A stretch of 64,000 bases of DNA from a virus: IMG/VR virus record IMGVR_UViG_3300025467_001046, positions 1 to 64,000 of that record; one strand, 5' to 3'. This document shows positions 6,760-55,467 of this stretch, piece by piece (position 1 is the first letter of the stretch; every line of letters starts with the position of its first letter). The notes beneath the pieces are model-generated. The model worked only from the letters and a program-made list of their open reading frames with translations, was not told the DNA's origin and made no database searches. A program made the translations under genes and the position numbers.

Positions 6760-7743
6760 ATGAAAAAAACCGCATTTATCACCGGAGTCGCTGGACAAGA
6801 CGGAAGTTACTTGGCAGAACACCTGTTAGAACAAGGTTATCGAGTAACTGGTATTGTGCGTCGTAACAGCACAGTAGAACATCAGCGTAATCGTGTGGAT
6901 GGTCTTCCATTGGAATTAGAATATGGTGATCTCACTGATCAAAGCAGCCTGGAACGTGCTCTCCGCATGTTCAAGCCAGACGAGATTTACAATCTTGGCG
7001 CACAGAGTCATGTGCGTATCAGCAGTGACATCCCGCAGTTTACAGCACAAACCAACAGTATTGGTGTGCTAAACCTGTTGGAAGCCTACAAGAGTATCTG
7101 CCCCGAAGCAAGATTCTATCAGGCCAGTTCTAGTGAAATGTTTGGCAAAGGTGTAGACGAGGATCTGTATCAACGTGAAACTACACCTATGAAGCCAGTC
7201 AGTCCATATGGTTGCAGTAAAGTATTTGCCTACAATATCGTACGGCACTATAGAGAAGCATTCAAATTACATGCCAGCAACGGTATCCTGTTCAATCACG
7301 AAAGCCCACGACGTGGATCAAACTTTGTGACCAACAAGGTGGTCAAAGGTGCTGTAGAGATCAAACTGGGTCTTACAGATAAACTAGAAATGGGCAACAT
7401 GGACAGCTATCGTGACTGGGGACACAGCTATGACTATGTGCGGGCCATGCATAAGATCCTTAATCACTCAGAGCCTGTTGACCTTGTGGTGGCCACTGGC
7501 GAAACTCGCAGTGTGCGCGACATGTGCAACTATGTGTTTGGCCGGTTGGATTTGGATTACAGCCAGTACGTGGTACAGAACAAGAAGTTTCTGCGCCCAG
7601 AGGAGTTGCCATATCTGCGTGGTGATAGCTCCAAATTAAGAACCTTGTTGGACTGGGCTCCTACCTACACATTCGAACAACTTATGGACGAAATGATTGA
7701 ATATTGGATGGATATCTATCAGAAAGATCTTGCAAAGTCCTAG
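6760..7743 (+). CDS. gmd: GDP-mannose 4,6-dehydratase
   Basis: 327 residues, the usual length. Gmd converts GDP-mannose to GDP-4-keto-6-deoxymannose, the entry point to GDP-fucose, GDP-rhamnose and GDP-perosamine. The N-terminus has the diagnostic T-G-V-A-G-Q-D-G-S-Y-L NADP-binding loop (residues 8-18). The catalytic S-S-S-E-M-F-G segment is near residue 124, and Y-x-x-x-K (S-P-Y-G-C-S-K) is near residue 148. The F-N-H-E-S-P-R-R-G substrate motif is intact, so the enzyme should be active. AGGA lies just upstream of the ATG. A DegT aminotransferase at 38.0 kb could take the product onward (inference). Confidence 0.93.
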   Translation: MKKTAFITGVAGQDGSYLAEHLLEQGYRVTGIVRRNSTVEHQRNRVDGLPLELEYGDLTDQSSLERALRMFKPDEIYNLGAQSHVRISSDIPQFTAQTNSIGVLNLLEAYKSICPEARFYQASSSEMFGKGVDEDLYQRETTPMKPVSPYGCSKVFAYNIVRHYREAFKLHASNGILFNHESPRRGSNFVTNKVVKGAVEIKLGLTDKLEMGNMDSYRDWGHSYDYVRAMHKILNHSEPVDLVVATGETRSVRDMCNYVFGRLDLDYSQYVVQNKKFLRPEELPYLRGDSSKLRTLLDWAPTYTFEQLMDEMIEYWMDIYQKDLAKS

Positions 7744-9408: not shown

Positions 9409-9593
9409 CACCGATTCCTGGACTGATACCTCGACTCAAAGGTGATTGGGAACGGCATTGGACTATATTTCCACGTAGAATAAACGGTCGGTGGTATTGT
9501 AGAGAATATGTTTATCGTAAGTTTGTCTCAAGTCCGGGCGGCGGATTTTGGCAGTACGGTGATGAATTTGATGTGCTAAAGGAAATTGAATGA
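9405..9593 (+). CDS. Small hypothetical protein
   Basis: 62 residues, rich in Trp, Arg and Tyr. ATGA overlaps join it to queE upstream and to the dehydrogenase gene downstream, which supports real translation. No membrane segment and no recognised family. Confidence 0.55.
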   Translation: MTPIPGLIPRLKGDWERHWTIFPRRINGRWYCREYVYRKFVSSPGGGFWQYGDEFDVLKEIE

Positions 9594-10822
9594 ACGTAGG
9601 ATTTATTGGTCTGGGCAAATTAGGACTTGATTGTGCTGAGGTCATGGCCGAACACTATACTGTACGTGGTTACGACCTTGAACCGCGAGTCAGCGAGTCA
9701 GTGCGTGTTTGTGATATCGATGAGGTAGTACAACAGAGTGATTGGATCTTTATTGCTGTGCCAACTCCTCATGCTGAAGGATATGATGGATCAGTTCCCA
9801 GTAGTCATATGCCTCCTCGAGACTTCGGACGCGATGCTGTCATGGATGCTATCGAGCAGATCAATCGTCATGCCACAGCGCCTAAGAAAGTTGTGTTGAT
9901 CTCAACTGTGTTGCCTGGAACCACACGCCGTTATTTTGTACCGGCTCTCGAGGCTCGACACGAATTCCTTTACAATCCTTACCTGATTGCCATGGGTTCG
10001 GTCAAGTGGGATATGGTTAATCCTCAAATGATCATGATCGGCACAGAAGATGGTAGTTGGACTGGAATAGCTCTCGAACTGGTCGAAGTTTATCGTCCGC
10101 TCATGCAGAATGATCCACGCATAGAAATTGGTACCTGGGACGAATGCGAAGCCATAAAAATCTTTTACAACACCTTCATCAGTGCCAAGATCGGTCTGGC
10201 CAACATGATACAGGATTTTGCCATGAAGATTGGACATATCAATGTGGACGTGGTTACCGATGCCTTGGCACAAAGCACCATGCGTATCATGGGACCTAAG
10301 TACATGACAGCCGGCATGGGCGATGCCGGTGCTTGCCACCCTAGAGATAACATTGCCTTGCGTTGGTTGGCCGAAGAATACGAAGTAGGGTACGATCTGT
10401 TTGATACCATCATGTTGGCCCGCGAACGTCAGGCCAAAAATCTGGCCGACTTTCTAGTCATACAGGCACAAAAGTACAATCTACCTATAGTGATACATGG
10501 CAAGGCCTACAAGCCCGATGTGCCTTACTGTATTGGATCCTATTCGACTCTGGTGGGACACTATGTACAGCAGGCGGGACACCGCATCAACTATGTGGAT
10601 CCGTTGGCCGATGATACTACCGATGTATCTGTTGACTGGAACAAACCTGCGGTGATCCTGTTGGCCCATAATAAACATGTGACCTACGGATATACAGGGC
10701 AGACACAGACAGAAACTAACTACTTTGAATTCCTTGCAGGATCTGTTGTTGTTGATCCCTGGAGACAGTTCAACAAGTCCACACCAGACTTGACAGTAAT
10801 ACACTATGGAGATACAAGATAA
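9590..10822 (+). CDS. UDP-glucose/GDP-mannose dehydrogenase-family protein
   Basis: 410 residues, normal for the family. The Rossmann loop G-F-I-G-L-G-K-L-G is at residues 4-12, A-V-P-T-P near residue 54, and S-T-V-L-P-G-T near residue 105. The catalytic Cys segment reads G-D-A-G-A-C-H-P-R-D near residue 243, matching the family's G-G-x-C-x-P-K-D. The C-terminal domain keeps G-K-A-Y-K-P-D. These enzymes oxidise the C6 alcohol of a nucleotide sugar to a uronic acid using two NAD+. Here Lys in the PKD element is Arg and the neighbouring loop is changed, so the substrate may differ from UDP-glucose. Coupled to both neighbours. Confidence 0.75.
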   Translation: MNVGFIGLGKLGLDCAEVMAEHYTVRGYDLEPRVSESVRVCDIDEVVQQSDWIFIAVPTPHAEGYDGSVPSSHMPPRDFGRDAVMDAIEQINRHATAPKKVVLISTVLPGTTRRYFVPALEARHEFLYNPYLIAMGSVKWDMVNPQMIMIGTEDGSWTGIALELVEVYRPLMQNDPRIEIGTWDECEAIKIFYNTFISAKIGLANMIQDFAMKIGHINVDVVTDALAQSTMRIMGPKYMTAGMGDAGACHPRDNIALRWLAEEYEVGYDLFDTIMLARERQAKNLADFLVIQAQKYNLPIVIHGKAYKPDVPYCIGSYSTLVGHYVQQAGHRINYVDPLADDTTDVSVDWNKPAVILLAHNKHVTYGYTGQTQTETNYFEFLAGSVVVDPWRQFNKSTPDLTVIHYGDTR

Positions 10823-16009: not shown

Positions 16010-16086
16010 GGGCCTATAGCTCAGTTGGTTAGAGCAGAGGACTCATAATCCTTTGGTCCCTGGTTCGAGTCCAGGTGGGCCCACCA
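16010..16086 (+). tRNA. tRNA with CAU anticodon (tRNA-Ile2 or tRNA-Met)
   Basis: 77-nt cloverleaf with a 7-bp acceptor stem (one G-U), anticodon loop C-T-C-A-T-A-A, T-loop TTCGAGT and encoded CCA. The anticodon arm and the T-T-G-G-T-C after it resemble the minor isoleucine tRNA (lysidine at C34) more than elongator Met, but modification cannot be seen. A consensus promoter lies directly upstream. Confidence 0.9.
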
Positions 16087-16087
16087 A

Positions 16088-16095
16088 TATAAATA
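16088..16095 (+). promoter_or_regulatory. TATAAATA between tRNA and tmRNA
   Basis: Exact T4-late-type TATAAATA begins two bases after the tRNA CCA and abuts the 5' side of the tmRNA acceptor piece. It could let the tmRNA be transcribed late, independent of the tRNA promoter; chance occurrence is possible. Confidence 0.3.
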
Positions 16096-16400
16096 GATTT
16101 GATTGTTGTAATTCCTTCGTAGTGAAGGCACTGTGGACCCGGGTTCGATCCCCGGCATCTCCACCATAAGGGTATAGTATGTTTGAAACATGGCACTGGC
16201 AGTACGTATGGGGCATAGCCTGCACTGTAAACTATATCTTTATGATGGGGATGACATGGCTTCGACATGGTGAGATAGCGAAAGAGGCAACAGGACAGAG
16301 CAGTCCCAAAAACTAAAAAACGTAAACGCAAACGACGAACAGTTCGCATTGGCAGCCTAGGCTGTCTAGGGTAGGAAATACCTCGTAACAGAAACAACCA
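16096..16400 (+). ncRNA. ssrA: Circularly permuted (two-piece) tmRNA
   Basis: The acceptor piece comes first: T-arm with TTCGATC and a 3' end CATCTCC-A-CCA finishing at 16166. After an 80-base spacer the coding piece starts at 16247 with GGGGATG, which pairs with CATCTCC to give a 7-bp acceptor stem including the alanine-identity G3-U70 pair. Next comes the D-like GGCTTCGACATGG block. CATGGTG (16255-16261) pairs with CACTGTG of the acceptor piece as helix P2. The resume codon GCA is at 16328 and the tag reads ANDEQFALAA, ending at TAG 16358-16360, followed by a CCTAG/CTAGG hairpin. Trans-translation would rescue stalled ribosomes and tag products for proteolysis. Outer ends are estimates. Confidence 0.9.
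16179..16316 (+). other. 45-codon open frame across tmRNA spacer and coding piece
   Basis: An ATG at 16179, with AAGG eight bases before it, opens 45 codons that read through the spacer into the tmRNA coding piece and stop at TAA 16314-16316. The product would have a Trp/Met/Ile-rich hydrophobic stretch and a polar end. It may be a chance reading, because the RNA function of the second half is clear. Confidence 0.25.
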
Positions 16401-16402
16401 AG

Positions 16403-16424
16403 AAAGGGCTTCGGCCCTTTTCTT
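16403..16424 (+). terminator. Intrinsic terminator after tmRNA
   Basis: AAAGGGC (16403-16409), TTCG tetraloop, GCCCTTT (16414-16420), then TCTT. A compact, stable hairpin directly after the tmRNA coding piece. Confidence 0.85.
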
Positions 16425-16442
16425 ACAAATAAGTACAGTTCT

Positions 16443-17903
16443 ATGTGCGGTATACTTCTAGTTCGCAGTCGCGATAAAATTCCTTTACAAAAGCACTTTG
16501 ATGCTTTGAAACAGATCCAAAGTCGCGGACCCGATTTCATGCGCTATCGACATGAGAACGGTATCTTTATTGGACACACGGTCCTACATATAACCGGCGA
16601 TCGAGAATACTACGACAATAGCCATAGAAACTTCCTGGCCTACAACGGTGAAATCTACAACTACAGAGATCTAGGTGCCTACCGTACCGACACCGAATTC
16701 GTACATGAATGTGTGGAGAACGATCTAGGACGTCTTACGGCCGGGTGGGGTCCTTGGGCCTGGGCCTGGACTGACAGTGAAACTGTGCTGTATGCGTCAG
16801 ATCCACAGGGCGAACGTGCTCTCTATCAGTACCAGGATGATAATATTTTGATAGTATGCAGTGAAGTGGCGCCTATCCTAAGTTATATTGACGGGATAAA
16901 ACAAGCACAATCTTATGAGACCCGCAACTGGACCATGCTGGACACCACACCTTGGCAGGGCATTGTCAAGTGCGTGCCGGGCATGCTGTACCGTGATGGA
17001 CACCCATCGGGCATCATTGACAGCATATGGTCATGGGTAAAAGAACCGCAACATGTGACCGAAGATGAGGCCTACGAAGATTTTAGTTCGATATGGCGCG
17101 ATGTCATGCGGCAAATGACTCCAGCCTGTCCTGCGGGCTTGACCTATTCGGGTGGTCTAGACAGCTCCATAATCCTAAGCCACTTGCCAGGAGCATATCT
17201 ATACACCACCAACATGCAGGGCAAAGATCCTATAGCAGAACGTGTGGAAGGTTTTCTTAACGCCGGAGAACAACGACGCTTGGCACGCTTTGATGTAAAC
17301 GAACAGGATTTTGCTCAGGCCTTTGGTGCCTGCCAGACTCGCATACGCATGCCCATACAGAGTCCCAGTTTTGTGGGGCAGTGGCTCATAGCAGCCTTGT
17401 GTGGACAACGGGTGCTGTTCACAGGCATTGGTGCTGACGAGCTGTTTGGGGGTTACCCTGTGTACGATCGCATGGACTTTGTCAGTTCAGAATCAGCTAG
17501 CCCTTATAGTCTAGGCACTCCACTATGGCGCCAATGTCTGGATACCTGTTCAGGCGATGCAGAAGCTGCCACATTGTTGGCTGACTACTGGCATCAGATA
17601 GTGGGTTGTGATGCCAGAGGAGTCGACATGATCTGTGGTTCACACGGCATAGAAGCCAGAAGTCCATTCTTGGCTACACCTGTCATTAGATTCGCATTGA
17701 ATCTGCCCATGTACTTACGACGCGGTAAACCCTTGATCCGACGGATGTTTCTTGAACGCTGGAATGAGTCACAGATACATGCCAAAAAAGGCTTCACCGG
17801 ACACTGTAATGATGCACTGCCTTGGATGGGCATTGAGATCGTGCCCACCGGAGATAGACAGTCAGACTGGCGACAAATTATACAAACCTGCTTTTATTCG
17901 TAA
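16443..17903 (+). CDS. asnB: Asparagine synthetase, glutamine-hydrolysing family
   Basis: 486 residues, a little shorter than bacterial AsnB (about 550). Met is followed by the nucleophile Cys2-Gly-Ile of class II glutamine amidotransferases. R-G-P-D near residue 29 and Y-N-G-E-I-Y-N near residue 69 complete the glutaminase domain. The synthetase domain has the PP-loop Y-S-G-G-L-D-S-S near residue 236 and G-I-G-A-D-E-L-F-G-G-Y near residue 328. The family amidates a carboxylate using ATP and glutamine. In glycan loci AsnB-like enzymes also amidate uronic acids, which would suit the dehydrogenase gene at 9590 (inference). Its end overlaps the opposing gene by ten bases. No ribosome binding site is evident. 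Confidence 0.85.
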   Translation: MCGILLVRSRDKIPLQKHFDALKQIQSRGPDFMRYRHENGIFIGHTVLHITGDREYYDNSHRNFLAYNGEIYNYRDLGAYRTDTEFVHECVENDLGRLTAGWGPWAWAWTDSETVLYASDPQGERALYQYQDDNILIVCSEVAPILSYIDGIKQAQSYETRNWTMLDTTPWQGIVKCVPGMLYRDGHPSGIIDSIWSWVKEPQHVTEDEAYEDFSSIWRDVMRQMTPACPAGLTYSGGLDSSIILSHLPGAYLYTTNMQGKDPIAERVEGFLNAGEQRRLARFDVNEQDFAQAFGACQTRIRMPIQSPSFVGQWLIAALCGQRVLFTGIGADELFGGYPVYDRMDFVSSESASPYSLGTPLWRQCLDTCSGDAEAATLLADYWHQIVGCDARGVDMICGSHGIEARSPFLATPVIRFALNLPMYLRRGKPLIRRMFLERWNESQIHAKKGFTGHCNDALPWMGIEIVPTGDRQSDWRQIIQTCFYS

Positions 17904-36860: not shown

Positions 36861-37103
36861 ATGCCAAAGACTGTCTTGCACACATTTACCATGTCGGATG
36901 TTGACGATCCATACTTATACGCGGCTTTTCCCTTGTCAGAGTGGCAAAAGACCGAACACGGCCGGTGGGTAATGGAGCATGCCATTGGTGAACCAACCTT
37001 TTATTGTAATGCAGATGCCAACACTTACGGATTCCGGGTGGAAGTGATAGGTGATTTGACCGAACAGGATTTGACCTATTTCAAACTAAGGTGGAGCCGA
37101 TGA
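36861..37103 (+). CDS. Small F-x-L-K-W family protein I (separate from array)
   Basis: 80 residues. It ends E-Q-D-L-T-Y-F-K-L-R-W-S-R, the same C-terminal signature as the array at 30.7-32.7 kb, but lies 4 kb away under its own promoter. Coupled by ATGA to the epimerase gene. Confidence 0.6.
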   Translation: MPKTVLHTFTMSDVDDPYLYAAFPLSEWQKTEHGRWVMEHAIGEPTFYCNADANTYGFRVEVIGDLTEQDLTYFKLRWSR

Positions 37104-38071
37104 AGGCATTGGTAACAGGTGGATTAGGTTTTATTGGACACTATGTAGTGGCCATGTTAGAAGCAGTAGGCTACGAAGTGGCCATCATTGATTCAATGAC
37201 CACTTACGGTATCATACCCATTGGGGAACTTACACCCTTGTTGTCGGAACGCATGGCACAGTTTAGTACTAGAGATATTACCATAGCTGACATCAGTGAA
37301 CCGTTTGATCACAGCATACTTGACGGTGTAGATGTAGTCATACACTTGGCCAGCTTTCCGCGGCAAAAAGTAGTGAATCACAATCCACAGGCCGGTTCCA
37401 GAGTCATGAGTGAAGGCCTGCTGAATCTCTTAGAGCTCAGTGTCAAGCATCAGGTTAAAAAGTTTGTGTATGTGAGCTCCAGTATGGTTTATGGCGATTT
37501 CAACAAGACCTATTTTGATGGTATAAACGAAAGTGACGACTGTAGACCCATGGGTCAGTACGGCATCATGAAGCTGGCCGGCGAGTGGTTAGTGCAGGAT
37601 TATACACGCCGTACTGGCATGAGCCATGTGATTGTAAGACCCAGTGCTGTGTATGGTCCTAGAGATGTGGAAGATCGTGTGGTTAGTCGTTTCCTGATAA
37701 CAGCCATGCAGGGTGGTGAAATACAGGTCAACGGTGGCAATGAGAGCCTGGACTTTACCTATGTAACTGACTGTGCCGCCGGCATAGTAGTGGCCGCAGT
37801 CAAAACAACCATTGAAAATCGCACTTACAATCTCAGCAGAGGACATGCCAGAACCTTGAGCGAAGCGGCCCAGGTAGCTGTGACCACAGCCGGCGCTGGA
37901 ACTATTCGCCTGAATGATCCTGATGGTGCTTATCCCAGTCGCGGACAATTAAATACACTTAATGCTCAACAGGATCTTGGGTTTGCTCCCGAAGTCGACA
38001 TTGAACAAGGTTTCAAGGACTATTATGAATGGCTTAAGAATTCCATTTACGGGATTAAAAAAGCAGTATAA
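37100..38071 (+). CDS. NAD-dependent epimerase/dehydratase
   Basis: 323 residues from the ATGA overlap. G-G-L-G-F-I-G-H-Y (residues 7-15) is the NAD-binding loop, V-S-S-S near residue 129 and Y-G-I-M-K near residue 155 supply the catalytic Ser and YxxxK, and R-P-S-A-V-Y-G-P-R follows. Extended SDR acting on nucleotide sugars (4-epimerase or 4,6-dehydratase type). It overlaps the aminotransferase behind it by 44 bases, so the two probably act in sequence. Confidence 0.8.
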   Translation: MKALVTGGLGFIGHYVVAMLEAVGYEVAIIDSMTTYGIIPIGELTPLLSERMAQFSTRDITIADISEPFDHSILDGVDVVIHLASFPRQKVVNHNPQAGSRVMSEGLLNLLELSVKHQVKKFVYVSSSMVYGDFNKTYFDGINESDDCRPMGQYGIMKLAGEWLVQDYTRRTGMSHVIVRPSAVYGPRDVEDRVVSRFLITAMQGGEIQVNGGNESLDFTYVTDCAAGIVVAAVKTTIENRTYNLSRGHARTLSEAAQVAVTTAGAGTIRLNDPDGAYPSRGQLNTLNAQQDLGFAPEVDIEQGFKDYYEWLKNSIYGIKKAV

Positions 38072-44118: not shown

Positions 44119-45570
44119 TCAACTGCATACAGTTATACCGTAAAGATCCTGGAATCTATCAGCGTCGCTGCGATCGTTAACCATAGGCTCACCTCGAATA
44201 TTAAGGCTAGTATTAAGCAGGATAGCACAACCGGTTTTCGCATGCCAGGCCTCTAAGAGTTGTCTAATTCCGCTATCATCCGGCGGTACAGTTTGTATCC
44301 TACTGGTACCATCAACATGGGTAATAGCAGGAAATAGATCAGGACGCCTGCAACGACCGACGACCTGCATATACCTAGTGTCACAGAAACCACTAGGGAT
44401 ATCAAAATACTCATTAGCATACTCCTCCAAAACAACGGGAGCGAACGGTCTAAATTGTTGTCTACGTTTGATGGCATTTACACGATCCTTTATATCTGAT
44501 CCTCGGGGGTCTGCGAGCAGACTTCTATTTCCCAGGGCTCTGGGTCCAAACTCGGCCCGACCGCTAGCGACACCGACGATTCTATCACTGAGTAAACGAT
44601 CAAGGCAGGCGCTGACAGGATACGTTCCTGGGATGTTTGTGCCAAGGTACGCATTTTGCCAGTTGATCCTGCCTCCGTAGGCCAATGCGGCAGCGCCAAG
44701 ACTGCTGCCACCGTCACCAGGGCAAGGCATGATCCAGATATTTTCAAAATATTCATTTAAGTTTCGATTGGCCAAACAGTTGAGTGCAACACCGCCCTGA
44801 TATACAAGATTACGACTCCAGCCAAAGGCTCGGGCACGTTGCATAACCTTATATATCTCTTCTTCAAGAATAACCTGCGCACTAGCAGCTATATCCACAT
44901 CTCTAGCTGTGGGCAGGAACATGTGATCGATTCCTACATGTAGATTTTCCTGCAACAGGATCTGCATGGTATCTGTGTGCCTAGCTTCGCCATAGGCACT
45001 CATGCCCATCAGTATGTATTCATCTTCCATGGGTCTCAATCCCACACGTTCTGTGATGGCGGTATAGAATAATCCTAGGCTATAAGGATATCGCTGGCGC
45101 CATAGGATATCATACTGAGCTTGGCCATCTACATAGTGTGCGCCCCAAATGGTTATGGTATCCCATTCGCCAATGGCATCAATCACGACCACCGTGGCTC
45201 GATCAAAACTACTGGTTTGGAAACCAGCAGCCGCGTGGCTCAAATGATGACTGTGTGTTGACACAGGAACATTATCAAAAAAGCCATCCAGCTGTTGATC
45301 TAGCACTTGATGGGTAGTTAGCTTGTTCCACTCAATGCCTTGTCCTGAGTACAGTTGACGCAACTGTTTTTTCCAAGGTGTTTCATAATAAGCAATGTGA
45401 TCAATATGGCGCCCTTGTGCTAGATCAAACAACATGTCTACATTAAGATTGGCATCATTTTTGATTTTACTATAGCGTTCGGCATGACCAGCATACACTA
45501 TGTTGCCGCCAGCATCAATTACTGTAGCAGCAGCGTCATGAAAACCGGCACTGATCCCTAGGATATTCAT
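44119..45570 (-). CDS. Carbamoyltransferase (NodU/CmcH family)
   Basis: 483 residues, shorter than the usual 550-600. The N-terminal ASKHA domain has I-L-G-I-S-A-G-F-H-D-A-A near residue 3 and H-S-H-H-L-S-H-A near residue 105, which binds iron and carbamoyl phosphate. The C-terminal YrdC-like part has F-G-P-R-A-L-G-N-R-S-L-L-A-D-P-R near residue 345. These enzymes add a carbamoyl group to a sugar hydroxyl from carbamoyl phosphate and ATP, as in Nod factors and antibiotics. Coupled to the small gene upstream by ATGA. Acceptor sugar unknown. Confidence 0.87.
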   Translation of the reverse strand: MNILGISAGFHDAAATVIDAGGNIVYAGHAERYSKIKNDANLNVDMLFDLAQGRHIDHIAYYETPWKKQLRQLYSGQGIEWNKLTTHQVLDQQLDGFFDNVPVSTHSHHLSHAAAGFQTSSFDRATVVVIDAIGEWDTITIWGAHYVDGQAQYDILWRQRYPYSLGLFYTAITERVGLRPMEDEYILMGMSAYGEARHTDTMQILLQENLHVGIDHMFLPTARDVDIAASAQVILEEEIYKVMQRARAFGWSRNLVYQGGVALNCLANRNLNEYFENIWIMPCPGDGGSSLGAAALAYGGRINWQNAYLGTNIPGTYPVSACLDRLLSDRIVGVASGRAEFGPRALGNRSLLADPRGSDIKDRVNAIKRRQQFRPFAPVVLEEYANEYFDIPSGFCDTRYMQVVGRCRRPDLFPAITHVDGTSRIQTVPPDDSGIRQLLEAWHAKTGCAILLNTSLNIRGEPMVNDRSDADRFQDLYGITVCS

Positions 45571-46338: not shown

Positions 46339-47366
46339 AACAGATCCATTTGTTGTTGAGCATATCTGGGATCATTCCAGTGATATGTGTATTCTGCTCG
46401 GGCACTACTAGTGCGTATCTCGGTTACATCCAATCTGGAAGCCAGCATGTTCCATATTTGCACATAATCTTCTGTTCCAAAACTGCGTATCAAATTTACC
46501 TGGCCTATCTGCGGATGACCAATGGTAAGGGTTTTGTCTTCAGGATCAAATCCATTGGTTACTAACCATTCACGAAATTCAGCCAGTTGGCGGATTTGCC
46601 AATCATGTGCTCCAGGATCTCTGGCCCATTCAATGTCAAAATCGCCAGCAGCTTCGGTTTGATTTTTCAAGGTAGTTGTTGTCAACTCGTTGATCCTACT
46701 GTCGCGGCCTTCGTCCTGGAACACTTCCCAGTGATGCTTGCCTACGGCCTTGTTGACTCCTACATATACTCCACCCATTTTCCGATTGATTGTTTCAATT
46801 CCAAACAGTTCATAATCGGCTTCGTCCAATACAAAACGTGGAGCATTTAGCCAACACATGAGTTGACTGGGTCTCATCCATTCGGGTGCGGTGTGTTTCT
46901 TGCGCCAACTCAAGGCCCAGCTTTCAAATTCATGACACAGGAGATTCAGTTGTCGTATGTGCCAGCGCACCGATGCATCTGCATCACGATAAAAATGACT
47001 TATACGTCCGCTGACACCTTGAAGATCTTCAAAATATCTGTGAAGATGATTGAACCGTTCGCGTACAATGTTCATGTCATGGTCCATCACAGTATCCAAC
47101 GTAAACACATCATCAATGGTATAACCTATATTGGCTGAATTTATTTCGGCAATTGAATTGTTGATTTGACCACAAAGATAATCACCGTTTCTTTCAGAAT
47201 CAGGAAATCCCATGAAACAGTAGTTTTTTTCTAAATGATATTGGTCACGTATCAAATCATTCAAGGCTGCCAACCATTTACGACTGAGACTGCTATCCCA
47301 TACATTGATGTAGATGGTGAGATCTTCCAGATCTATTTCTACAACATCAAGTAACGATTGATTCAT
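46335..47366 (-). CDS. Unknown protein
   Basis: 343 residues; the start is either ATG 47366 or ATG 47378, both overlapping the radical SAM gene upstream and neither with a strong binding site. Rich in Trp, His, Asp and Asn, no membrane segment, no motif recognised. Coupled to both neighbours and lying directly behind a radical SAM gene, so it may be its partner or substrate-binding protein (inference). Confidence 0.5.
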   Translation of the reverse strand: MNQSLLDVVEIDLEDLTIYINVWDSSLSRKWLAALNDLIRDQYHLEKNYCFMGFPDSERNGDYLCGQINNSIAEINSANIGYTIDDVFTLDTVMDHDMNIVRERFNHLHRYFEDLQGVSGRISHFYRDADASVRWHIRQLNLLCHEFESWALSWRKKHTAPEWMRPSQLMCWLNAPRFVLDEADYELFGIETINRKMGGVYVGVNKAVGKHHWEVFQDEGRDSRINELTTTTLKNQTEAAGDFDIEWARDPGAHDWQIRQLAEFREWLVTNGFDPEDKTLTIGHPQIGQVNLIRSFGTEDYVQIWNMLASRLDVTEIRTSSARAEYTYHWNDPRYAQQQMDLL

Positions 47367-48648
47367 ACCATGCACCAATTTCTGGGTCTTGCCCTAGGAT
47401 GTCCGCAAGAGTAAATGAATCTCCACGGATAGATTCTAATTGTAACACACGACGCTTGCCTCGTGCAAGAGATTCGGCAAAGGTATCAGGCCATTGCTCC
47501 TCAAATGTCGGACGACATTTGAGCTGTAGCAATATATCTTGCATAGCTCCTGAAGTTTCGGTTATTAGACTGTCTACAGTTTTGTCTAATAACTCACGTG
47601 GCAAGGCCAATGGACTTAGGATTATGTCTGGAGTAAAACTGAATACTACCTTGGCCAGGATGTCTACGCCGAAGTCGGCGGCAAGAGACGTAATGTTGGC
47701 GACTTCAAAGAGTCCTGGTAGCGTAAGAGTAAAATCGATTCGCCATTGGCGGCGGTTCTTGGCCATGGCAACGCCTCGGGCGAAATTATCTCGCCATGCA
47801 CTGTAATCAAGTCCGGTTCTGATGTATTCTCCTGTGGCTCCGGTTCCGTCGAGACTGGCACAGATTTGATAATCCCGTAGATGAGCCAAAATGTCACTAT
47901 AAAGGTCACAACCCCTGTAATTAACCCGGCTAAGATTTGTGTTGTATCTAGCATAAACGCGATCTCCGTCGCCTAATTCAATAATTCTTTTCATGTATCG
48001 CCAGTGCTGTTCATACATGAGCGGCTCTCCACCTACCCAGTACACTTCTTCTACACGATGTTCTTCTACTGCTTGAGCGAATTCACGTTCAATCTGACCG
48101 TCTTGAAAAGTACTTATCTCAGATCTGATCTCGGGGCGCATCCAGTTGTTTTTTGAATCGTCCCAGTTGATCATGTCATGCTGTCGCTGTTCGGTTTCCC
48201 ACGCAGAACTCAGCATGTCACCACACATGCGGCATTTGAAATTGCACAGGTTACTGAATCTATAGTCCCAGGAAATTGGCTTGACTGTGGTAAAACCTGT
48301 AGCATCTGTGGCCTGCATGGCGGACTCATAACGGTCGCCAAACATTCTGTTAAAATAACTACGATAAACATCAGTATTCAACAGTTGATTGTTGCATACA
48401 TCACACTCGGGTAGAGTTTCACCGGCCATCATTCTACGACGAACACTGCGCATATGATCGCTGTTCCAATGCTCGTCTAATGTGATAGGAATATACTGCC
48501 CGGTACCTGCGGCTGTATCTATGTACTGAGCAAAATTCTGCGCAGGTTCACGCGATGCACAGCACATTCTGCGTTCGGTTTGTGGACTTAGATACGTGTG
48601 AGTCCAAGGTGCCATACACAAGGTATCAGGTTTCACTTGTTGGTCCAA
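47347..48648 (-). CDS. Radical SAM enzyme with N-terminal twitch domain (1)
   Basis: 433 residues. The cluster motif S-N-L-C-N-F-K-C-R-M-C-G has Cys at 135, 139 and 142 (CX3CX2C), followed by G-G-E-P-L near residue 207. In front of the barrel are Cys 11, 29, 30, 82 and 85, set like a SPASM/twitch auxiliary-cluster domain but placed at the N-terminus (N-Twi radical SAM layout). Such enzymes modify peptides or small molecules with a deoxyadenosyl radical. One of five in this cluster. Substrate unknown. Confidence 0.8.
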   Translation of the reverse strand: MDQQVKPDTLCMAPWTHTYLSPQTERRMCCASREPAQNFAQYIDTAAGTGQYIPITLDEHWNSDHMRSVRRRMMAGETLPECDVCNNQLLNTDVYRSYFNRMFGDRYESAMQATDATGFTTVKPISWDYRFSNLCNFKCRMCGDMLSSAWETEQRQHDMINWDDSKNNWMRPEIRSEISTFQDGQIEREFAQAVEEHRVEEVYWVGGEPLMYEQHWRYMKRIIELGDGDRVYARYNTNLSRVNYRGCDLYSDILAHLRDYQICASLDGTGATGEYIRTGLDYSAWRDNFARGVAMAKNRRQWRIDFTLTLPGLFEVANITSLAADFGVDILAKVVFSFTPDIILSPLALPRELLDKTVDSLITETSGAMQDILLQLKCRPTFEEQWPDTFAESLARGKRRVLQLESIRGDSFTLADILGQDPEIGAWYESIVT

Positions 48649-49145
48649 TTGATATATAGGGTTTTTCTGTAGGACACATGGGCCACTTCGCCAATCATAT
48701 GATGCAAGATCTTGTTGCTGTTGTGTAACATTATTCCATGATTTTTGCGATATTCAACAAAATATTCTGCGTCATCTTCGTAGTATTTGGTGCCCATTTC
48801 ACCATGGCCCCAGGTGTCAAGATATACGATGATCACATTATGTACATTTTCAAAATCCACATGGATAGTATTTCTGTAACCAGGGTAATCTCTCCATAGT
48901 TCTATCGAAGAAGATTTTGGCACATCAAAACAGGCCAGTATGCGTTGACGCAGTTCGGTGTTGGCCAATAACAACACATGTCGATCAGATCCAGATAACG
49001 GTGTCAGCAGTTCCGGAGCATCATCAGCTGTCTGTATACGGGTAGGTGTAAATGTATCTACTAGATCGATTATTTCCTGCAGGAGATCATCTGGAAATAC
49101 ATCACACAGTCTCGCCCCATTGGGGGACAAAGGTTTGATGTGCAT
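48633..49145 (-). CDS. 2OG-Fe(II) oxygenase-like protein
   Basis: 170 residues. T-I-H-V-D near residue 93 (His-x-Asp), a beta-rich core with V-I-I-V-Y-L-D, then L-H-H-M-I near residue 146 (distal His) and an Arg twelve residues on give the 2OG oxygenase ligand set. It sits between two radical SAM genes, overlapping one by 16 bases and one base from the other, so it may hydroxylate the same substrate. Confidence 0.6.
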   Translation of the reverse strand: MHIKPLSPNGARLCDVFPDDLLQEIIDLVDTFTPTRIQTADDAPELLTPLSGSDRHVLLLANTELRQRILACFDVPKSSSIELWRDYPGYRNTIHVDFENVHNVIIVYLDTWGHGEMGTKYYEDDAEYFVEYRKNHGIMLHNSNKILHHMIGEVAHVSYRKTLYINWTNK

Positions 49146-49146
49146 G

Positions 49147-50364
49147 TTAATCTGGTCCCATATAATTGATCATGTGAGCGAATTCTGGTTCCACCTTACA
49201 GAGATTTTGACCACGTCGGCGATCCAGATTGGCCATTTCTCTACGCATGTTGAAACCGTCTAGACTGACACCGCCCAGCATGAAATCAATGATGCGATCA
49301 AATTCCTTACGGTCCTGCGGATTGACCCGAGCCAGGCGCAGACGTTGTGCGATTGTATACTTGGCCGATTCTGGCAAGGTGCTGATACTAAAGTAATAGG
49401 CTTCATGCATCATGTTCCAGTAGACAAAATCAAACTGTTGTTGCTCAATCCAGTGACTTAATTCTTCAAGATAGCATACATTAAATACATTCACCGTGGC
49501 ACATACCTGTAGTTGTATGTTGTCACAACGTCTGCGCATGTCTTGGAAACGTTCAATGTTGGCACACACTTCGGTCCATTGAGCATTGCTACGTTGGTAT
49601 TCAAATCTAGCACCCACATCGTCGATGCTGAAAGCTATTTCCACTGTTTTAAAATAGCGCCAAATTTCTTCAGCTTGCTCAGGCCATTGTGTGCCATTGG
49701 TGTTGTAATGTATTTCTATATTGTGAGCTATGCCGCGATTGATCAAGCCCTGCAACATGTCAAAGTGTTCTTGGATCATAAATGGTTCGCCACCGGTGAA
49801 TTCAATGTAGCGTATTTGATCTGACACTTGATCTATTTCAGTCCAGAATGTTTCATTTTCTCTAGGCCATGCACCGTTGCGTAACATTTGATAATGAAAA
49901 CTGGTTTTCTTATCTTCACCGGGTTCCAAATTGGCCAGTTCTTCTATGGCAAATGTACTTGAGCTCCATGATCCACAGATACGACATTTTAAATTGCAGA
50001 TGTTGCCCAGCTTGAGATCTAAGAACATGAGTGGTTTGGCATCTGCGGTCCATTCTGAATCGTCAATCATGTGCTTGAGTCGATCCAGGGTATGCATACG
50101 CTTCGATGTACGGCCACTACGTTCTTCACGCCAGCATTTTCTACAGGTCTGTGGCTGTTCACCGGCTAGGAACTGTTCACGTAGATGTCGCATACTGGCG
50201 CTGTCCTGTATGCTACTGAATTGTGCGGTGGCCAGATTGAATTTTTGTCCAGACTCATCTACCAGTTCATCTTCGGCCAGGCAACAAGGACGTACCGTGC
50301 CAACAGGACTGGTTTCCAAGCTGATCCATGGCAGTACGCAGAATCGATCGTGTGGTATTTTCAT
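49147..50364 (-). CDS. Radical SAM enzyme with N-terminal twitch domain (2)
   Basis: 405 residues. N-terminal C-V-L-P-W and C-C-L (Cys 9, 27, 28) plus C-R-K-C near residue 73 form the probable auxiliary cluster. G-N-I-C-N-L-K-C-R-I-C-G near residue 126 is the SAM cluster, and T-G-G-E-P-F follows. Closest in layout to copy 3. The start overlaps the upstream stop as ATGA. Confidence 0.8.
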   Translation of the reverse strand: MKIPHDRFCVLPWISLETSPVGTVRPCCLAEDELVDESGQKFNLATAQFSSIQDSASMRHLREQFLAGEQPQTCRKCWREERSGRTSKRMHTLDRLKHMIDDSEWTADAKPLMFLDLKLGNICNLKCRICGSWSSSTFAIEELANLEPGEDKKTSFHYQMLRNGAWPRENETFWTEIDQVSDQIRYIEFTGGEPFMIQEHFDMLQGLINRGIAHNIEIHYNTNGTQWPEQAEEIWRYFKTVEIAFSIDDVGARFEYQRSNAQWTEVCANIERFQDMRRRCDNIQLQVCATVNVFNVCYLEELSHWIEQQQFDFVYWNMMHEAYYFSISTLPESAKYTIAQRLRLARVNPQDRKEFDRIIDFMLGGVSLDGFNMRREMANLDRRRGQNLCKVEPEFAHMINYMGPD

Positions 50365-51686
50365 CGGAGCGGAACTCGTTTATCTTCAGGACGATATTGA
50401 ACAATGGCCTCCAGCTCCGGAACCACACTCAACAAACTTTCACTGCGGCTCCAATCCAAATCGTTGACTGCTTGCCAAAAATTCTTCAACAAGTGACTAT
50501 TGTCTTGGGCCATCATGAATTCAATCGCGCCGCGGAATCCACCTACAGCACGCTGTATGGTGTCAAGGGGTTCAAGCCATGCTATGTGTGCTTCAAATTC
50601 GGCTTTGAATTTAAGTTTTAATTCCATGGGCAACATGTCTATACGATAACTGTCAGGACCTTGCAGTATGTTTAAATTGAAATCCTGCGCCCGGATATAC
50701 CCGGATTCCACCATGTAGCGATGGAATCGGGTAAAATTCCAGATATTCATCATGCTGAGCGTAGGACTGATCATAAAATCAATATGTGGACATTCGCGTT
50801 TCAAGTCACGTATATTCTGTTCAACTTGTGCCCAGTCGGTGCCCGAACGTATGATGCCGGCTCGATCACCCATGTCGTCTAGGCTGGCTGCCACGCATAC
50901 ATTAGGAAACTGTTTCCACAGATCCAACACACTTTCCTTTTTAAATTTCAATTCAGTTAGATTGGTATTATAGATCAATCCAAGATCGGTATTGCCTTTT
51001 TCAATCAGCAGTTTTAGGATACGATTGTGTTCTTCCATGATCAAGGGTTCGCCGCCGGCGAAATATATCTGTGTTAAGTGTGGGATATGCTCCTGCATCT
51101 GTTCCCAGATATCTTCATCGTGCCGTCCGGCAAATGATACACGTGGTCGTAGTTCTTTACCCCACAGCTTGACATCATCATCATACCAACGACTGCTGAA
51201 TATAGAGCCACAGCTGCGACATTTTAAATTGCAGATGTTACTAAAACGCACATCCCAATAGTGCAGACGCATGTCAGGTAAACTGCCGTCGGCACGGGTT
51301 TCGTCTACTTCAGCAATATAGTGTCCAAAGTTTTTGTTTGAATTGTTTCGCATGCTGGCAAAACCAGCGGCTTCCTGTTCATAACAGTCGCTGCATTCAC
51401 GACAAGGTTTTTCTTCCAACATGTTTCTGCGCATTTCACGCATGCCTTCGGCATTCCATACTTCACGCATGGTCTGTTGTTTAAGATCACCCACTGGGTA
51501 TTTGCCATTTGCCAAACAGCAAGGATAAGCGCGACCGTCGGGCCAGGCATGCAGATGTATCCAAGGTAGTATACAAAAATGCTCTGACTCCATCAAGCGA
51601 TGCTTCTGCTTGTCGTCTAGCTCATCCAGTGCTATGTAATTAGGCACTCGATCCATCCAGTTGTATTTTCCTATAATCTTGCTCAC
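50361..51686 (-). CDS. Radical SAM enzyme with N-terminal twitch domain (3)
   Basis: 441 residues from a GTG in a GTGA overlap with copy 4 (a TTG further upstream is less likely). C-I-L-P-W, P-C-C-L and C-R-E-C-S-D-C make the N-terminal cysteine set; S-N-I-C-N-L-K-C-R-S-C-G is the SAM cluster; F-A-G-G-E-P-L follows. Same subtype as copies 1 and 2. Confidence 0.8.
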   Translation of the reverse strand: MSKIIGKYNWMDRVPNYIALDELDDKQKHRLMESEHFCILPWIHLHAWPDGRAYPCCLANGKYPVGDLKQQTMREVWNAEGMREMRRNMLEEKPCRECSDCYEQEAAGFASMRNNSNKNFGHYIAEVDETRADGSLPDMRLHYWDVRFSNICNLKCRSCGSIFSSRWYDDDVKLWGKELRPRVSFAGRHDEDIWEQMQEHIPHLTQIYFAGGEPLIMEEHNRILKLLIEKGNTDLGLIYNTNLTELKFKKESVLDLWKQFPNVCVAASLDDMGDRAGIIRSGTDWAQVEQNIRDLKRECPHIDFMISPTLSMMNIWNFTRFHRYMVESGYIRAQDFNLNILQGPDSYRIDMLPMELKLKFKAEFEAHIAWLEPLDTIQRAVGGFRGAIEFMMAQDNSHLLKNFWQAVNDLDWSRSESLLSVVPELEAIVQYRPEDKRVPLR

Positions 51687-53017
51687 AGTGTATGGTACCA
51701 ATCTTGTAGTTGTGCGAATGTTTTGCTAAAGTTTTTTCCTCGACGCTGATCATATTGCTTATAAAACTGCTTGAAGTCGTTGTGCAGTTTGGGCATTTCA
51801 AACGCTTCAGAATGTGGCGTCTTGACCACATCAAGATAATCAATAAGTCGTTGTACATGATTGCGTTCATGTTCGTGGATCATGTCATCGGATCCCCACT
51901 GATCCAGCCAGGCCTCTAGCTGTTGCTTGTGCCGGGTGCGTATTACATCGGGCAAGACCAAGGCGCTTTGAAAGCTAGGGAATCTGAGTATGTTTAGAGT
52001 GAAGCTGGGAAAGTCTCGACCATATTGATGTTTCCAACGCATGAATACTGTCAGTAGGTCGGGCAAGGTGTCCAAGCACAAGGCATTGATGGTGCACATG
52101 ACGTGCAGGCCACGCAGACGATCACTGTCCATCAATTTGATCATGTTCATGACCCAAGCACTGTAATCAAGCCCGTCTCTGATGTATTCAGCCTGGACTC
52201 CAACACTTTCCTGGCTGGTGTATAGATCCAGTTCTATCCCTTGGGTGGCAGTCAACAAGCGATCTAGATCCACGCCAGGACCTAAATTTGAGTTGATGGC
52301 TAGTCGTGTAGAACTACGCCCAGGGTTATTTTGAAACCAGTCAATCAGCTTCCAGGTATCACCACTCATGAGTGGCTCGCCACCAGTGATCCTTAGTTCT
52401 TGGAGTGTTTGATGGAGGTCTGTTTCCCACCACTTGAAAAACGCTTCAACATAGGGATTTGTTTCGCCAAAGCGGTATAGTTGACTAGTATCGTGAGCAT
52501 GAGTAAAGTGGCCACGCCCATCAGACACCAGGCCGTCATAGGCGCCGTTGGATCGTATGTCACGAACCCATGTGCTACTGAAAGCAGGGTTACAATAGCT
52601 ACAAGCGAATTGGCAAGTGCGATCGAACGCGATTTCAAGCGTGCGAAGATTGACATCTTCTTGGTGTGGTTTTTGATATGCTTCATTTAAGGCCTCCAGA
52701 GGGTAAATTCGACTTTTGTACACACGGTCACTCACAGCATCGCGACCCATGTCTTCGATTTTCCAACAGTATTCGCAACCTTTGGGACGGTTACCCAACT
52801 GCATGTTCAATCGATCTATTTTCTTCTCTACTGTGTTGTGTATGGCACTGGGACGGGTTTTGATTTCCTCTACGTCAATGGCATGTGCCGGTGGATGATG
52901 ACAACTTGTGGTCTGACCAGATCCCAACCAGATAGTGGCATTGTACCATTTGGCCGCGCAGAAGCTGGCACTTTTTGGGTCTAAGACCTGTTGTTTAAAC
53001 TCTAAATCGTTCACGTA
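51683..53017 (-). CDS. Radical SAM enzyme with N-terminal twitch domain (4)
   Basis: About 444 residues from GTG 53017; a longer reading to 53101 would overlap the upstream gene by 107 bases, and neither has a clear ribosome binding site. The N-terminal set is of a second subtype: C-A-A-K-W then S-C-H-H-P-P, and C-E-Y-C-W. The SAM cluster is C-Q-F-A-C-S-Y-C-N-P, with T-G-G-E-P-L later. Copy 5 shares all of these. Confidence 0.75.
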   Translation of the reverse strand, partial: YVNDLEFKQQVLDPKSASFCAAKWYNATIWLGSGQTTSCHHPPAHAIDVEEIKTRPSAIHNTVEKKIDRLNMQLGNRPKGCEYCWKIEDMGRDAVSDRVYKSRIYPLEALNEAYQKPHQEDVNLRTLEIAFDRTCQFACSYCNPAFSSTWVRDIRSNGAYDGLVSDGRGHFTHAHDTSQLYRFGETNPYVEAFFKWWETDLHQTLQELRITGGEPLMSGDTWKLIDWFQNNPGRSSTRLAINSNLGPGVDLDRLLTATQGIELDLYTSQESVGVQAEYIRDGLDYSAWVMNMIKLMDSDRLRGLHVMCTINALCLDTLPDLLTVFMRWKHQYGRDFPSFTLNILRFPSFQSALVLPDVIRTRHKQQLEAWLDQWGSDDMIHEHERNHVQRLIDYLDVVKTPHSEAFEMPKLHNDFKQFYKQYDQRRGKNFSKTFAQLQDWYHTL

Positions 53018-54068
53018 TAAATTTTTCAAAGCGTTGAGGAAATTCGGCACGGACCTGTAGCCGCATGTCTGCGAGATGTTGCTTGTTGTATTTACACACA
53101 TCCTCGCAGGCTGTAAGGAAACTGGCCAGATCTTGCTGACACAGATCTCGTATCACTTCGGCACATCGCACTACACGAACATGATTGTCGGCTATGTTAT
53201 CAAAAGATTCATCTATCACATGTCCAAACGTGCGGAAACCCAGTTTGTGTAGATCTCTATAAAATCCACAATTGGCCACAGCAATAAATGGATGACCAAT
53301 GGCTATGGGTTTCCATATTTTTTCTGTCCGGAAACTGTAAGGATATCTATGCACTGTTTCGGTGACCACGCTGAAATATGTGTCCTGATAAGGACGAGCC
53401 TTGAGATATATTTCTCCCCAGATTCCGCGGAACAGTTGATTTTTGATCAGTCCCACCGAGACTGTGGTATCGACAGTCGAATCAAACATGTCAGGTTCAT
53501 AACCGGCCGGTAAAAGCTGTATTGGGCCGTTGCCACTATCCAAATTGGTCCACAAGGCCTGATCCAGTACCGGTCTCAACAGGTCTATCATGTAGCGTCT
53601 ATGATCGCGTTGTCGTCCATTCAGGAACAGGAACTTATAAGGACGATCTGTAGAATATTGATCCTGATACTGTTGCACTGCTTCCATGTTTTCCACATAG
53701 TCATACAGCTTGGGCAAAAAACTTTCATACAACAGATGCGGATACTGTGCAGGGATATCACCGCCGGTGATAACTGGAATCTGCCCTTGCTCAAGCAGAT
53801 CCATCACTTTCAATCCAAATTCACAGTGAGTAATCACAGTTTCGGACCCTTCGGCTGGATTGCTAAAAACTACATCTATAGTTTTATTTCGCACAAGATC
53901 TACGATGAGATCGCGATTGGCATTGAACTGCTGTCGACCAATCACATATACTGCGCCTGGCAAAATTTCGTGTTGCGATAAATCCCAAAATTCTGCATCA
54001 ATCCAAGGTTGTATTAGATCAGATATTTCACTAAAGGTGTCTACTACCAGCTTACGATTGCCTAGCAT
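52995..54068 (-). CDS. Putative glycosyltransferase, GT10-like family
   Basis: 357 residues, set between two radical SAM genes. S-V-V-T-E-T near residue 235, R-T-E-K-I-W-K-P-I, H-P-F-I-A-V, L-G-F-R-T-F and D-E-S-F-D give the family C-domain. The N-terminal half has no match to its relatives. It overlaps both neighbours, so all three are coupled in translation. Confidence 0.6.
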   Translation of the reverse strand: MLGNRKLVVDTFSEISDLIQPWIDAEFWDLSQHEILPGAVYVIGRQQFNANRDLIVDLVRNKTIDVVFSNPAEGSETVITHCEFGLKVMDLLEQGQIPVITGGDIPAQYPHLLYESFLPKLYDYVENMEAVQQYQDQYSTDRPYKFLFLNGRQRDHRRYMIDLLRPVLDQALWTNLDSGNGPIQLLPAGYEPDMFDSTVDTTVSVGLIKNQLFRGIWGEIYLKARPYQDTYFSVVTETVHRYPYSFRTEKIWKPIAIGHPFIAVANCGFYRDLHKLGFRTFGHVIDESFDNIADNHVRVVRCAEVIRDLCQQDLASFLTACEDVCKYNKQHLADMRLQVRAEFPQRFEKFIRERFRV

Positions 54069-55467
54069 AGTATTCGCACTCCTTCCACCAGGCAGTCATT
54101 TCTGGAAAGGTCTTTAAAAAATCTGTGCCATGTCTGCGATCGGCTTCGCTAAAGAATCTAAAAAAGTCGGCCTTGTTGCGTTGTAAGTATGCAGGCTCTA
54201 ACTTTTGTCCATCACGCATCCAGGCTATGTCGCGATCCAGTCTGGCTATCTCGTAGTCTTTGAATCCATGAAAAGGATCGTCCTCGCGTTCAATTTGACG
54301 TATCATCCAGGCCCAGAGATATTCCAACTGTTCTGCATAACTTTCAGGCAGTAGCTGTAAACTTTGCCAGGCAGGCTGACGAAGTACAGGAGTGTCAAAC
54401 CAAACACGTTGATAAGTCTTGCTGTACAGTTTGCGCAGGCCTAAAATACCAGCAAACAGGCTACTGAGATTGGTCACACTCAGATTGTTCATGGTCACAA
54501 TAAAAGTAATGCTGTTGCGACCAGGAATCTCTGTTAGAAATTGATTAACGCGATCCCATAAGAGATTAAAATCTAAACCGTGACGAATATATTCAGCCTG
54601 CGACCCCCACGAATCCAAACTTACATACTGCATAAAATGTTCGATCTTTTCACCCTCACACAGTTCTTTCACATGGCCTTTGTATTTTTGCCACGACTTT
54701 TCATCCACACTAAAATTACTAGTCACATCCAAGTGTAAGTTGGGTTTAGGGTTGGCCAACACATAGTCAAACACACGATAGGTATTCTTATCCAGCATGG
54801 GTTCGCCGCCAGTCATGCGGAAATGTTCTAGTTCTGGATACAGTTCAGGCCACCAAGACCAAAATGCATCAACGTAGGGATTGGCGTCACGACTAGGTAT
54901 AGGGCGATTGCGACCAGTAAAGTGACTGGGATCATTGTGTATAGTGCCAGTAGGATATCCTCCCCACTTATCAACTTCTGCTTGCCAAGTTGAGCTAAAC
55001 TGCGGACTACAGTAACTACAAGCCAAATTACAGGCGTGATTAAAATTAACTTCAACATAACTAGGAACAACATTTTCATCTCCTGAGGAATTCATTATTG
55101 ATTCAAAATTTACGGCCGCCCATGGCTCGCCCGATCTGTAGTGTCGATCACTTAGTTTGCCATTGTCCTCCATGCTCCAGCAGTAGCTACATTCTGCAGG
55201 ACGTTCTTGTTGCAACATGATCTTGCGTTGTATTTTTTTGTAGGGTGTATTGTGCAGAATACTAGGATCGTTGGCCAGCGACTCAGTGGGTATTTCATGC
55301 AAGGGAGGATGGTAGCAACTGTTGTTGAGTCCGGTAGTTAAATGAAGGCTTACCTGTTTCCATTTGGCCAGGCACATGGCCGGACCCAACAGAGCCTGCA
55401 TGTCCTCGGCACTGCTCAGAAATTTAGATTTGAAATCTGAAGTGATTTCATCACCCTTGTTTACCAT
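54052..55467 (-). CDS. Radical SAM enzyme with N-terminal twitch domain (5)
   Basis: 471 residues. C-L-A-K-W, S-C-Y-H-P-P and C-S-Y-C-W in the N-terminal 110 residues, then C-N-L-A-C-S-Y-C-S-P near residue 145 and T-G-G-E-P-M near residue 215. Same subtype as copy 4, probably from a duplication that also enclosed the glycosyltransferase between them. Its start overlaps the next gene's stop by seven bases. Confidence 0.8.
   Translation of the reverse strand: MVNKGDEITSDFKSKFLSSAEDMQALLGPAMCLAKWKQVSLHLTTGLNNSCYHPPLHEIPTESLANDPSILHNTPYKKIQRKIMLQQERPAECSYCWSMEDNGKLSDRHYRSGEPWAAVNFESIMNSSGDENVVPSYVEVNFNHACNLACSYCSPQFSSTWQAEVDKWGGYPTGTIHNDPSHFTGRNRPIPSRDANPYVDAFWSWWPELYPELEHFRMTGGEPMLDKNTYRVFDYVLANPKPNLHLDVTSNFSVDEKSWQKYKGHVKELCEGEKIEHFMQYVSLDSWGSQAEYIRHGLDFNLLWDRVNQFLTEIPGRNSITFIVTMNNLSVTNLSSLFAGILGLRKLYSKTYQRVWFDTPVLRQPAWQSLQLLPESYAEQLEYLWAWMIRQIEREDDPFHGFKDYEIARLDRDIAWMRDGQKLEPAYLQRNKADFFRFFSEADRRHGTDFLKTFPEMTAWWKECEYYARQS

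Follow-up and report, generated by a model that had tools for sequence, protein, structure and literature searches.

A permuted phage tmRNA gene whose intervening segment very probably doubles as a small protein gene

Circularly permuted tmRNA genes carry their acceptor piece ahead of their coding piece, and the segment between the two is expected to be absent from the mature RNA. Is this segment only a spacer, or can it also be a gene? The question is raised by a tmRNA locus in a 64,000-nt stretch of viral DNA (positions 1 to 64,000 of IMG/VR record IMGVR_UViG_3300025467_001046; hereafter the window), the source contig of which is a tailed phage with a record length of 78,968 bp. We consider it very probable that this locus is a phage-borne, permuted, two-piece tmRNA gene of the beta type whose intervening segment has a second role, as a gene for a small protein. 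The new element is the protein gene within a phage tmRNA spacer, the two-piece phage tmRNA itself being known.

The permuted tmRNA gene and its phage context

Analysis with ARAGORN and Rfam identified positions 16104-16425 of the window as a circularly permuted, beta-type tmRNA gene (Table 1), at the place named by an original prediction made from the sequence alone. ARAGORN called a permuted tmRNA at 16074-16451 with the tag ANDEQFALAA. The covariance-model check that had been proposed gave full-length matches above the gathering scores, at 155.3 bits for RF01850, beta_tmRNA (E 7e-48; gathering score 84), and 130.9 bits for RF04321, tmRNA_permuted (gathering score 47); among the alpha, beta and cyano models of the clan, RF01850 scored highest. 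The acceptor (3') piece precedes the coding (5') piece, and the predicted anatomy was confirmed when the coordinates were re-read: the former ends with an encoded CCA at 16166 and the latter starts at 16247, GGGGATG and CATCTCC-ACCA form an acceptor stem with the G3-U70 alanine identity, P2 strands are present in both pieces of the Rfam alignments, and the tag frame runs from the resume codon GCA to a C-terminal ALAA and stop. Two features had been overlooked, namely the tRNA-Met gene directly upstream and the open reading frame (ORF) nested in the spacer.

An intron-form tmRNA was rejected for the window, in which the T arm is intact and uninterrupted and no intron family was matched. Invariance of the tag codons was also dropped as a phage-specific trait; E. 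coli shares GCAAACGACGAA. The Rfam scan of the window found no riboswitch near the tmRNA of the kind reported for phage Melnitz, and a match to Plastid-ycf2 on the opposite strand of the tRNA-Met gene was weak and below the gathering score.

The description of the genome as phage-like was borne out by matches to a virion structural protein of 4968 aa (phrog_10938, E 3e-279) and a 776-aa baseplate wedge subunit (phrog_10646, E 5e-152). At the right end of the window, the reverse-strand ORF at 61727-63967 is the end of the 4968-aa ORF (L308 1728-16634), which adjoins the wedge subunit gene. The 5'-3' exonuclease of the contig is nearest to those of jumbo phages such as PA5oct (52.5%). The phage record, possibly a fragment, yielded no smpB gene, and host SmpB is therefore assumed. 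An asparagine-synthase-like gene with PF00733 and glutamine amidotransferase domains directly follows the tmRNA (16443-17903, + strand). Elsewhere, five genes at 47347-55467 (- strand) weakly match radical SAM families of phages and lie near a Nol-like carbamoyltransferase gene (44119-45570), a combination that may represent a modification pathway, while UDP-glucose dehydrogenase and two nucleotide-sugar epimerase-like genes are found at 9590-10822, 6760-7743 and 37091-38071.

Table 1. Features of the tmRNA locus, in window coordinates
Feature	Position	Strand	Evidence
tRNA-Met (CAT), immediately 5' of the tmRNA	16010..16086	+	ARAGORN; similar tRNA-Met genes in isolated phages
Acceptor piece: P2 strand, T arm, CATCTCC (16156-16162), ACCA (16163-16166)	16104..16166	+	RF01850 and RF04321 alignments, coordinates re-read
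Predicted extension helix, 5' strand, CATAAGGGTATAGT, including the Shine-Dalgarno-like site	16165..16178	+	Fold z -4.1; covariation against swapped partners
Intervening segment (spacer), 80 nt, with nested ORF	16167..16246	+	Expected absence from a mature two-piece tmRNA, as in known permuted genes
AAGGG, Shine-Dalgarno-like, right behind CCA, 6 nt ahead of ATG	16168..16172	+	
Nested ORF, MFETWHWQYVWGIACTVNYIFMMGMTWLRHGEIAKEATGQSSPKN and stop; spacer part to 16246, remainder in the coding piece	16179..16316	+	Family conservation, pN/pS, 25 nested relatives
Predicted extension helix, 3' strand, ACTATATCTTTATG	16231..16244	+	Fold
Coding piece, 5' end to tag stop: GGGGATG (16247-16253), TTCGAC region, P2 partner	16247..16360	+	Rfam alignments, coordinates re-read
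Tag frame, ANDEQFALAA and stop, resume codon GCA	16328..16360	+	ARAGORN, coordinates re-read
GC-rich hairpin at the tmRNA 3' end, AAGAAAGGGC-TTCG-GCCCTTTTCTTA, terminator-like	16400..16425	+	Inside the RF01850 match

Tag distribution and origin of the gene

The exceptional status at first accorded to the locus was not supported. Two-piece tmRNA in phages was published in 2022, and the window is a further member of this group; passages of that paper (PMC9004378) give the two-piece form for 53 of 133 unique phage tmRNAs, with 50 from aquatic samples. A pattern scan found DNA encoding ANDEQFALAA in at least 119 IMG/VR contigs. Wherever ARAGORN called this tag on the IMG/VR loci listed, the gene was permuted. 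Of the 96 permuted genes called there, the one on contig L006 was alone in coming from neither a viral contig nor the window; the tag was seen together with the permuted form in over 90 viral contigs. Among 84,980 bacterial and archaeal species genomes, the tag pattern was present in six, comprising five one-piece genes and L006 (CAIMTR010000195.1), a 3-kb contig of a metagenome-assembled genome (MAG) on which the permuted ANDEQFALAA tmRNA gene occurs with several tRNA genes in a run. As this short contig is rich in tRNAs and the same MAG also has its own one-piece tmRNA, with the tag ANDDSYALAA, L006 is likely to be mis-binned phage DNA.

The original prediction had read the permuted form as a sign of capture from a host, and hence as a lead to the host lineage. 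We consider recent capture of a betaproteobacterial permuted ssrA gene to be most improbable. The closest model is indeed the betaproteobacterial one, and comparison with bacterial ssrA genes detected similar tags: permuted genes of Burkholderiales, an order in which 250 genomes yielded only 12 matches above the RF04321 cut-off, have tags including ANDEQFAIAA, ANDERFALAA and ANDENFALAA. Against this, the searched bacteria lack the combination of tag and permuted form, bar the probably mis-binned phage contig, and phage spacers are the longer (median of 88.5 nt for phage genes with the ANDEQFALAA tag versus 30.5 nt for bacterial genes). In a tree of 131 columns, of low resolution and with few forks resolved, the window fell among phage genes only, in a supported group of six (97); this small tree set the alphaproteobacterial genes apart (99) and placed the window beside, not inside, the betaproteobacterial ones. 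These observations are better matched by an old origin on the beta side and long circulation from phage to phage than by recent capture, and the tmRNA therefore says little about the present host.

The nested reading frame, its relatives and its predicted helix

The spacer of the window reads CCA-TAAGGG-TATAGT-ATG TTT GAA ACA TGG CAC TGG and onwards. The nested ORF has 45 codons, begins 12 nt past the CCA and ends in the coding piece; from codon 23 on, approximately half of the frame overlaps this piece and is there not separable from constraint on the tmRNA. The encoded peptide is conserved and hydrophobic (MFxxWHWxYxWGI...NY) and had no Pfam match; its composition makes a small membrane protein most likely, and by eye it resembles a single membrane segment. 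Relatives were sought across the whole of IMG/VR with a degenerate IUPAC DNA pattern. The motif was present in 36 contigs and linked to a tmRNA in 34, being nested in a permuted tmRNA spacer in 25, directly upstream in nine and in neither position in two. One contig (L334) has a gene of this family upstream of the tmRNA and a different gene inside the spacer.

Might the window nevertheless hold a plain two-piece phage tmRNA, its spacer frame a chance by-product of helix-forming sequence? The spacer is short, phage spacers below 85 nt have no excess of spanning ORFs over shuffled sequences, and no spanning ORF preceded by a Shine-Dalgarno (SD) motif was noted in the spacers of the XacN1, PA_L9 and Marzo isolates. 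As the 50-85 nt class to which the window belongs lacks this excess, the case for the window rests on protein-level selection and on the linkage of the peptide family to tmRNA genes. Both argue against a chance frame, which we regard as quite improbable. Spacers measuring 80, 89, 97 and 98 nt all contain this peptide, with change biased towards synonymous sites (window versus ten relatives: pS 0.74, pN 0.26, pN/pS 0.35), and the family value was 0.38 for the nested frame versus 0.77 and 0.82 for the other two frames. Moreover, the nine upstream copies are free-standing, with their own stop codon, and end just ahead of the acceptor piece.

The acceptor strand and spacer of the window are predicted to fold into a single long hairpin that carries the acceptor helix on beyond the CCA (-36 kcal/mol, z -4.1), and 0 of 200 shuffled sequences were equally stable. 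Across phage spacers, pairing between the two spacer ends beats pairing with swapped partners, a covariation that holds for nested protein genes (hereafter cargo) of 120 nt or more. Among 112 cargo-bearing spacers, minimum-free-energy predictions pair the SD motif with the final 35 nt in 110; this figure is weak on its own because spacer 3' ends resemble each other, and the swap test carries more weight. The ribosome site is thus predicted to be held in a helical extension of the acceptor stem, and the placement of the SD motif and start codon of the window inside a stable helix could block translation.

Protein genes across phage tmRNA spacers

We scored spacers for an SD-preceded frame that starts no more than 25 nt past the CCA and extends across the spacer. 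In scans without an SD requirement, 16 phage spacers measured 120 nt or more and 11 of them had such an ORF, whereas shuffling predicts 0.035. The corresponding counts were 11 of 43 for spacers of 85-120 nt (0.85 expected from whole-spacer shuffles and 3.7 with the ends kept) and 2 of 32 for those of 50-85 nt (about one expected). The bacterial sample covered permuted genes other than cyanobacterial ones, and 0 of 22 spacers had such an ORF in the first tally; a re-tally with alpha-type T arms included gave 28 of 79 tag-selected and 4 of 46 T-arm-selected phage spacers versus 0 of 34 bacterial ones. Two further scans (3 and 4) demanded an SD-like motif after the CCA and brought many more cargo-bearing spacers, so that their rates are biased and only scans 1 and 2 are unbiased. 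As most phage spacers below 85 nt are without such an ORF, the gene slot appears to be optional.

The cargo is diverse, with approximately 70 families (71 by crude clustering). Pfam matches were obtained to SNase (2.6e-12, L231), CxxCxxCC (1e-5, L022), DUF2061 (3.5e-20, L024 and L041) and thioredoxin (4e-21, L366), and HNH-like frames were seen in L415, as a Pfam match below the cut-off, and in L462, by eye. Complete nuclease, thioredoxin and HNH-like proteins are encoded inside tmRNA spacers, as do two related proteins of 120-124 aa with an LYHATYR motif (loci L231, L366, L415, L462, L336 and L397). RF04321 spanned the cargo in all 23 loci tested, with L397 cut at the 3' end. The nested-gene finder gave no matches in 5.6 Mb of Markov-shuffled sequence. 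Selection was examined for families with at least two members, the DUF2061 pair being without counts; the 12 families that gave a value had a pN/pS of 0.13-0.38 in the nested frame, as pooled pairwise estimates in which related pairs are counted repeatedly and which have no confidence interval. Both other frames had a higher ratio in every family but YRRK, for which there were two differences in all. Judged by these ratios, the tested cargo families are under purifying selection.

A further explanation is that the two pieces are separate genes flanking an ordinary small gene, with no functional nesting. A two-piece tmRNA does not need covalent continuity, small genes between tRNAs are common in phages and the same genes are also found just outside the tmRNA, as for the nine upstream copies of the window family. 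Likewise, Melnitz has annotated gp85 only 3 nt ahead of its tmRNA, and this protein shares 59% identity with the one nested in L312; the same gene lies beside the tmRNA in Melnitz and inside it in L312. The identity of a nested cargo to an annotated protein of a cultured phage also counts in favour of nested genes. Three patterns nevertheless make separate genes unlikely. The helix joining the spacer ends shows conservation and covariation even where 120-550 nt of coding sequence lie between its strands; 110 of 112 nested starts lie 8-15 nt past the CCA, and 55 nested frames stop 1 nt short of the coding piece; and unrelated cargo proteins share a C-terminal -VSL (17 cases) or -KSL (8 cases). 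These ends are encoded by the helix strand, which is thus constrained both as coding sequence and in its pairing.

Three kinds of T arm were observed among phage tmRNAs with the same tag, namely TTCGA, GTGCGAAT and the alphaproteobacteria-like GGGGCAGT (L024, L041, L074, L126, L380 and L404). A single cargo family was found with differing kinds (L126, L380 and L404), which suggests exchange of parts.

A probable nested gene in a presumably working tmRNA

Reading the locus as a tmRNA with a nested gene, and by analogy with known tmRNAs, we envisage that the transcript would fold with its CCA end and GGGG start in a shared acceptor stem, that RNase P and 3'-processing enzymes would excise the spacer and that the two pieces would be held together via P2. 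Once charged with alanine, this RNA and host SmpB would rescue ribosomes and append ANDEQFALAA. Peptide synthesis and tmRNA maturation would then compete for the same precursor. Our expectation is of a working tmRNA and a nested peptide that is made at least in some conditions.

A more tentative and rather doubtful proposal is mutual regulation of the nested gene and the tmRNA, through the ribosome site in the helix that offers the acceptor stem to processing enzymes and through conversion of the message into a non-stop form. RNase P cleavage before GGGG would remove the stop codon of those ORFs that, as in the window, run into the coding piece, and the peptide made from the resulting non-stop message would be tagged and destroyed by newly matured tmRNA. 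If true, a phage tmRNA would toggle between production of a small membrane protein and ribosome rescue. RNase III cleavage of arfA mRNA generates a non-stop message whose product is tagged by tmRNA. The feedback would be similar only if the RNase P cut makes the window ORF non-stop; arfA involves no tmRNA gene and serves as an analogy only.

The window has the piece order, G3-U70 acceptor stem, CCA, T arm, P2 and tag frame of known permuted tmRNAs (RF04321/RF01850). However, bacterial permuted genes differ from the window, with its 80-nt spacer and ORF, in that sampled spacers have a median of approximately 30 nt and no spanning SD-preceded ORF. Intron-form tmRNA genes with homing endonuclease genes (PMC11915505) resemble the window in having a protein gene inside a tmRNA gene that is lost on maturation, but the gene lies there in a self-splicing group I intron of the T loop and here in a permuted gene's spacer; phage spacer cargo is also varied and rarely HNH-like, in contrast to the homing endonucleases of the intron form. 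Melnitz, a myophage of OM43 (MZ577097), is like the window an aquatic phage with a permuted tmRNA, although passages of PMC9004378 tie its gene to alphaproteobacterial ones and give another tag. These passages mention a glutamine riboswitch and no protein gene in the spacer. We found that the Melnitz spacer (142 nt; L534 3277-3418) contains an SD motif, GGAG, ahead of an ORF, MFKWLSKTRLVVITRDYFRERNRKADAKIPKYLSGTRSVYDGGELGSTGRNRKV and stop, unannotated in MZ577097, whose peptide, translated by eye, begins MFKWLSKTRLVV. A search of openly licensed papers found no account of protein genes in a tmRNA intervening segment, an absence that is not proof; likewise, passages of a 2025 survey of 97,179 tmRNAs mention intervening sequences with a tRNA and a repeat and no protein gene.

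If expressed, the nested genes would constitute a hidden set of phage small proteins, missed since annotation labels the stretch as tmRNA. The nested arrangement ties a ribosome-rescue RNA to a protein cargo, and as Melnitz is a cultured phage, the arrangement is open to testing there. Finally, these findings suggest a possible use of permutation in phages, that of providing a loop able to carry genes.
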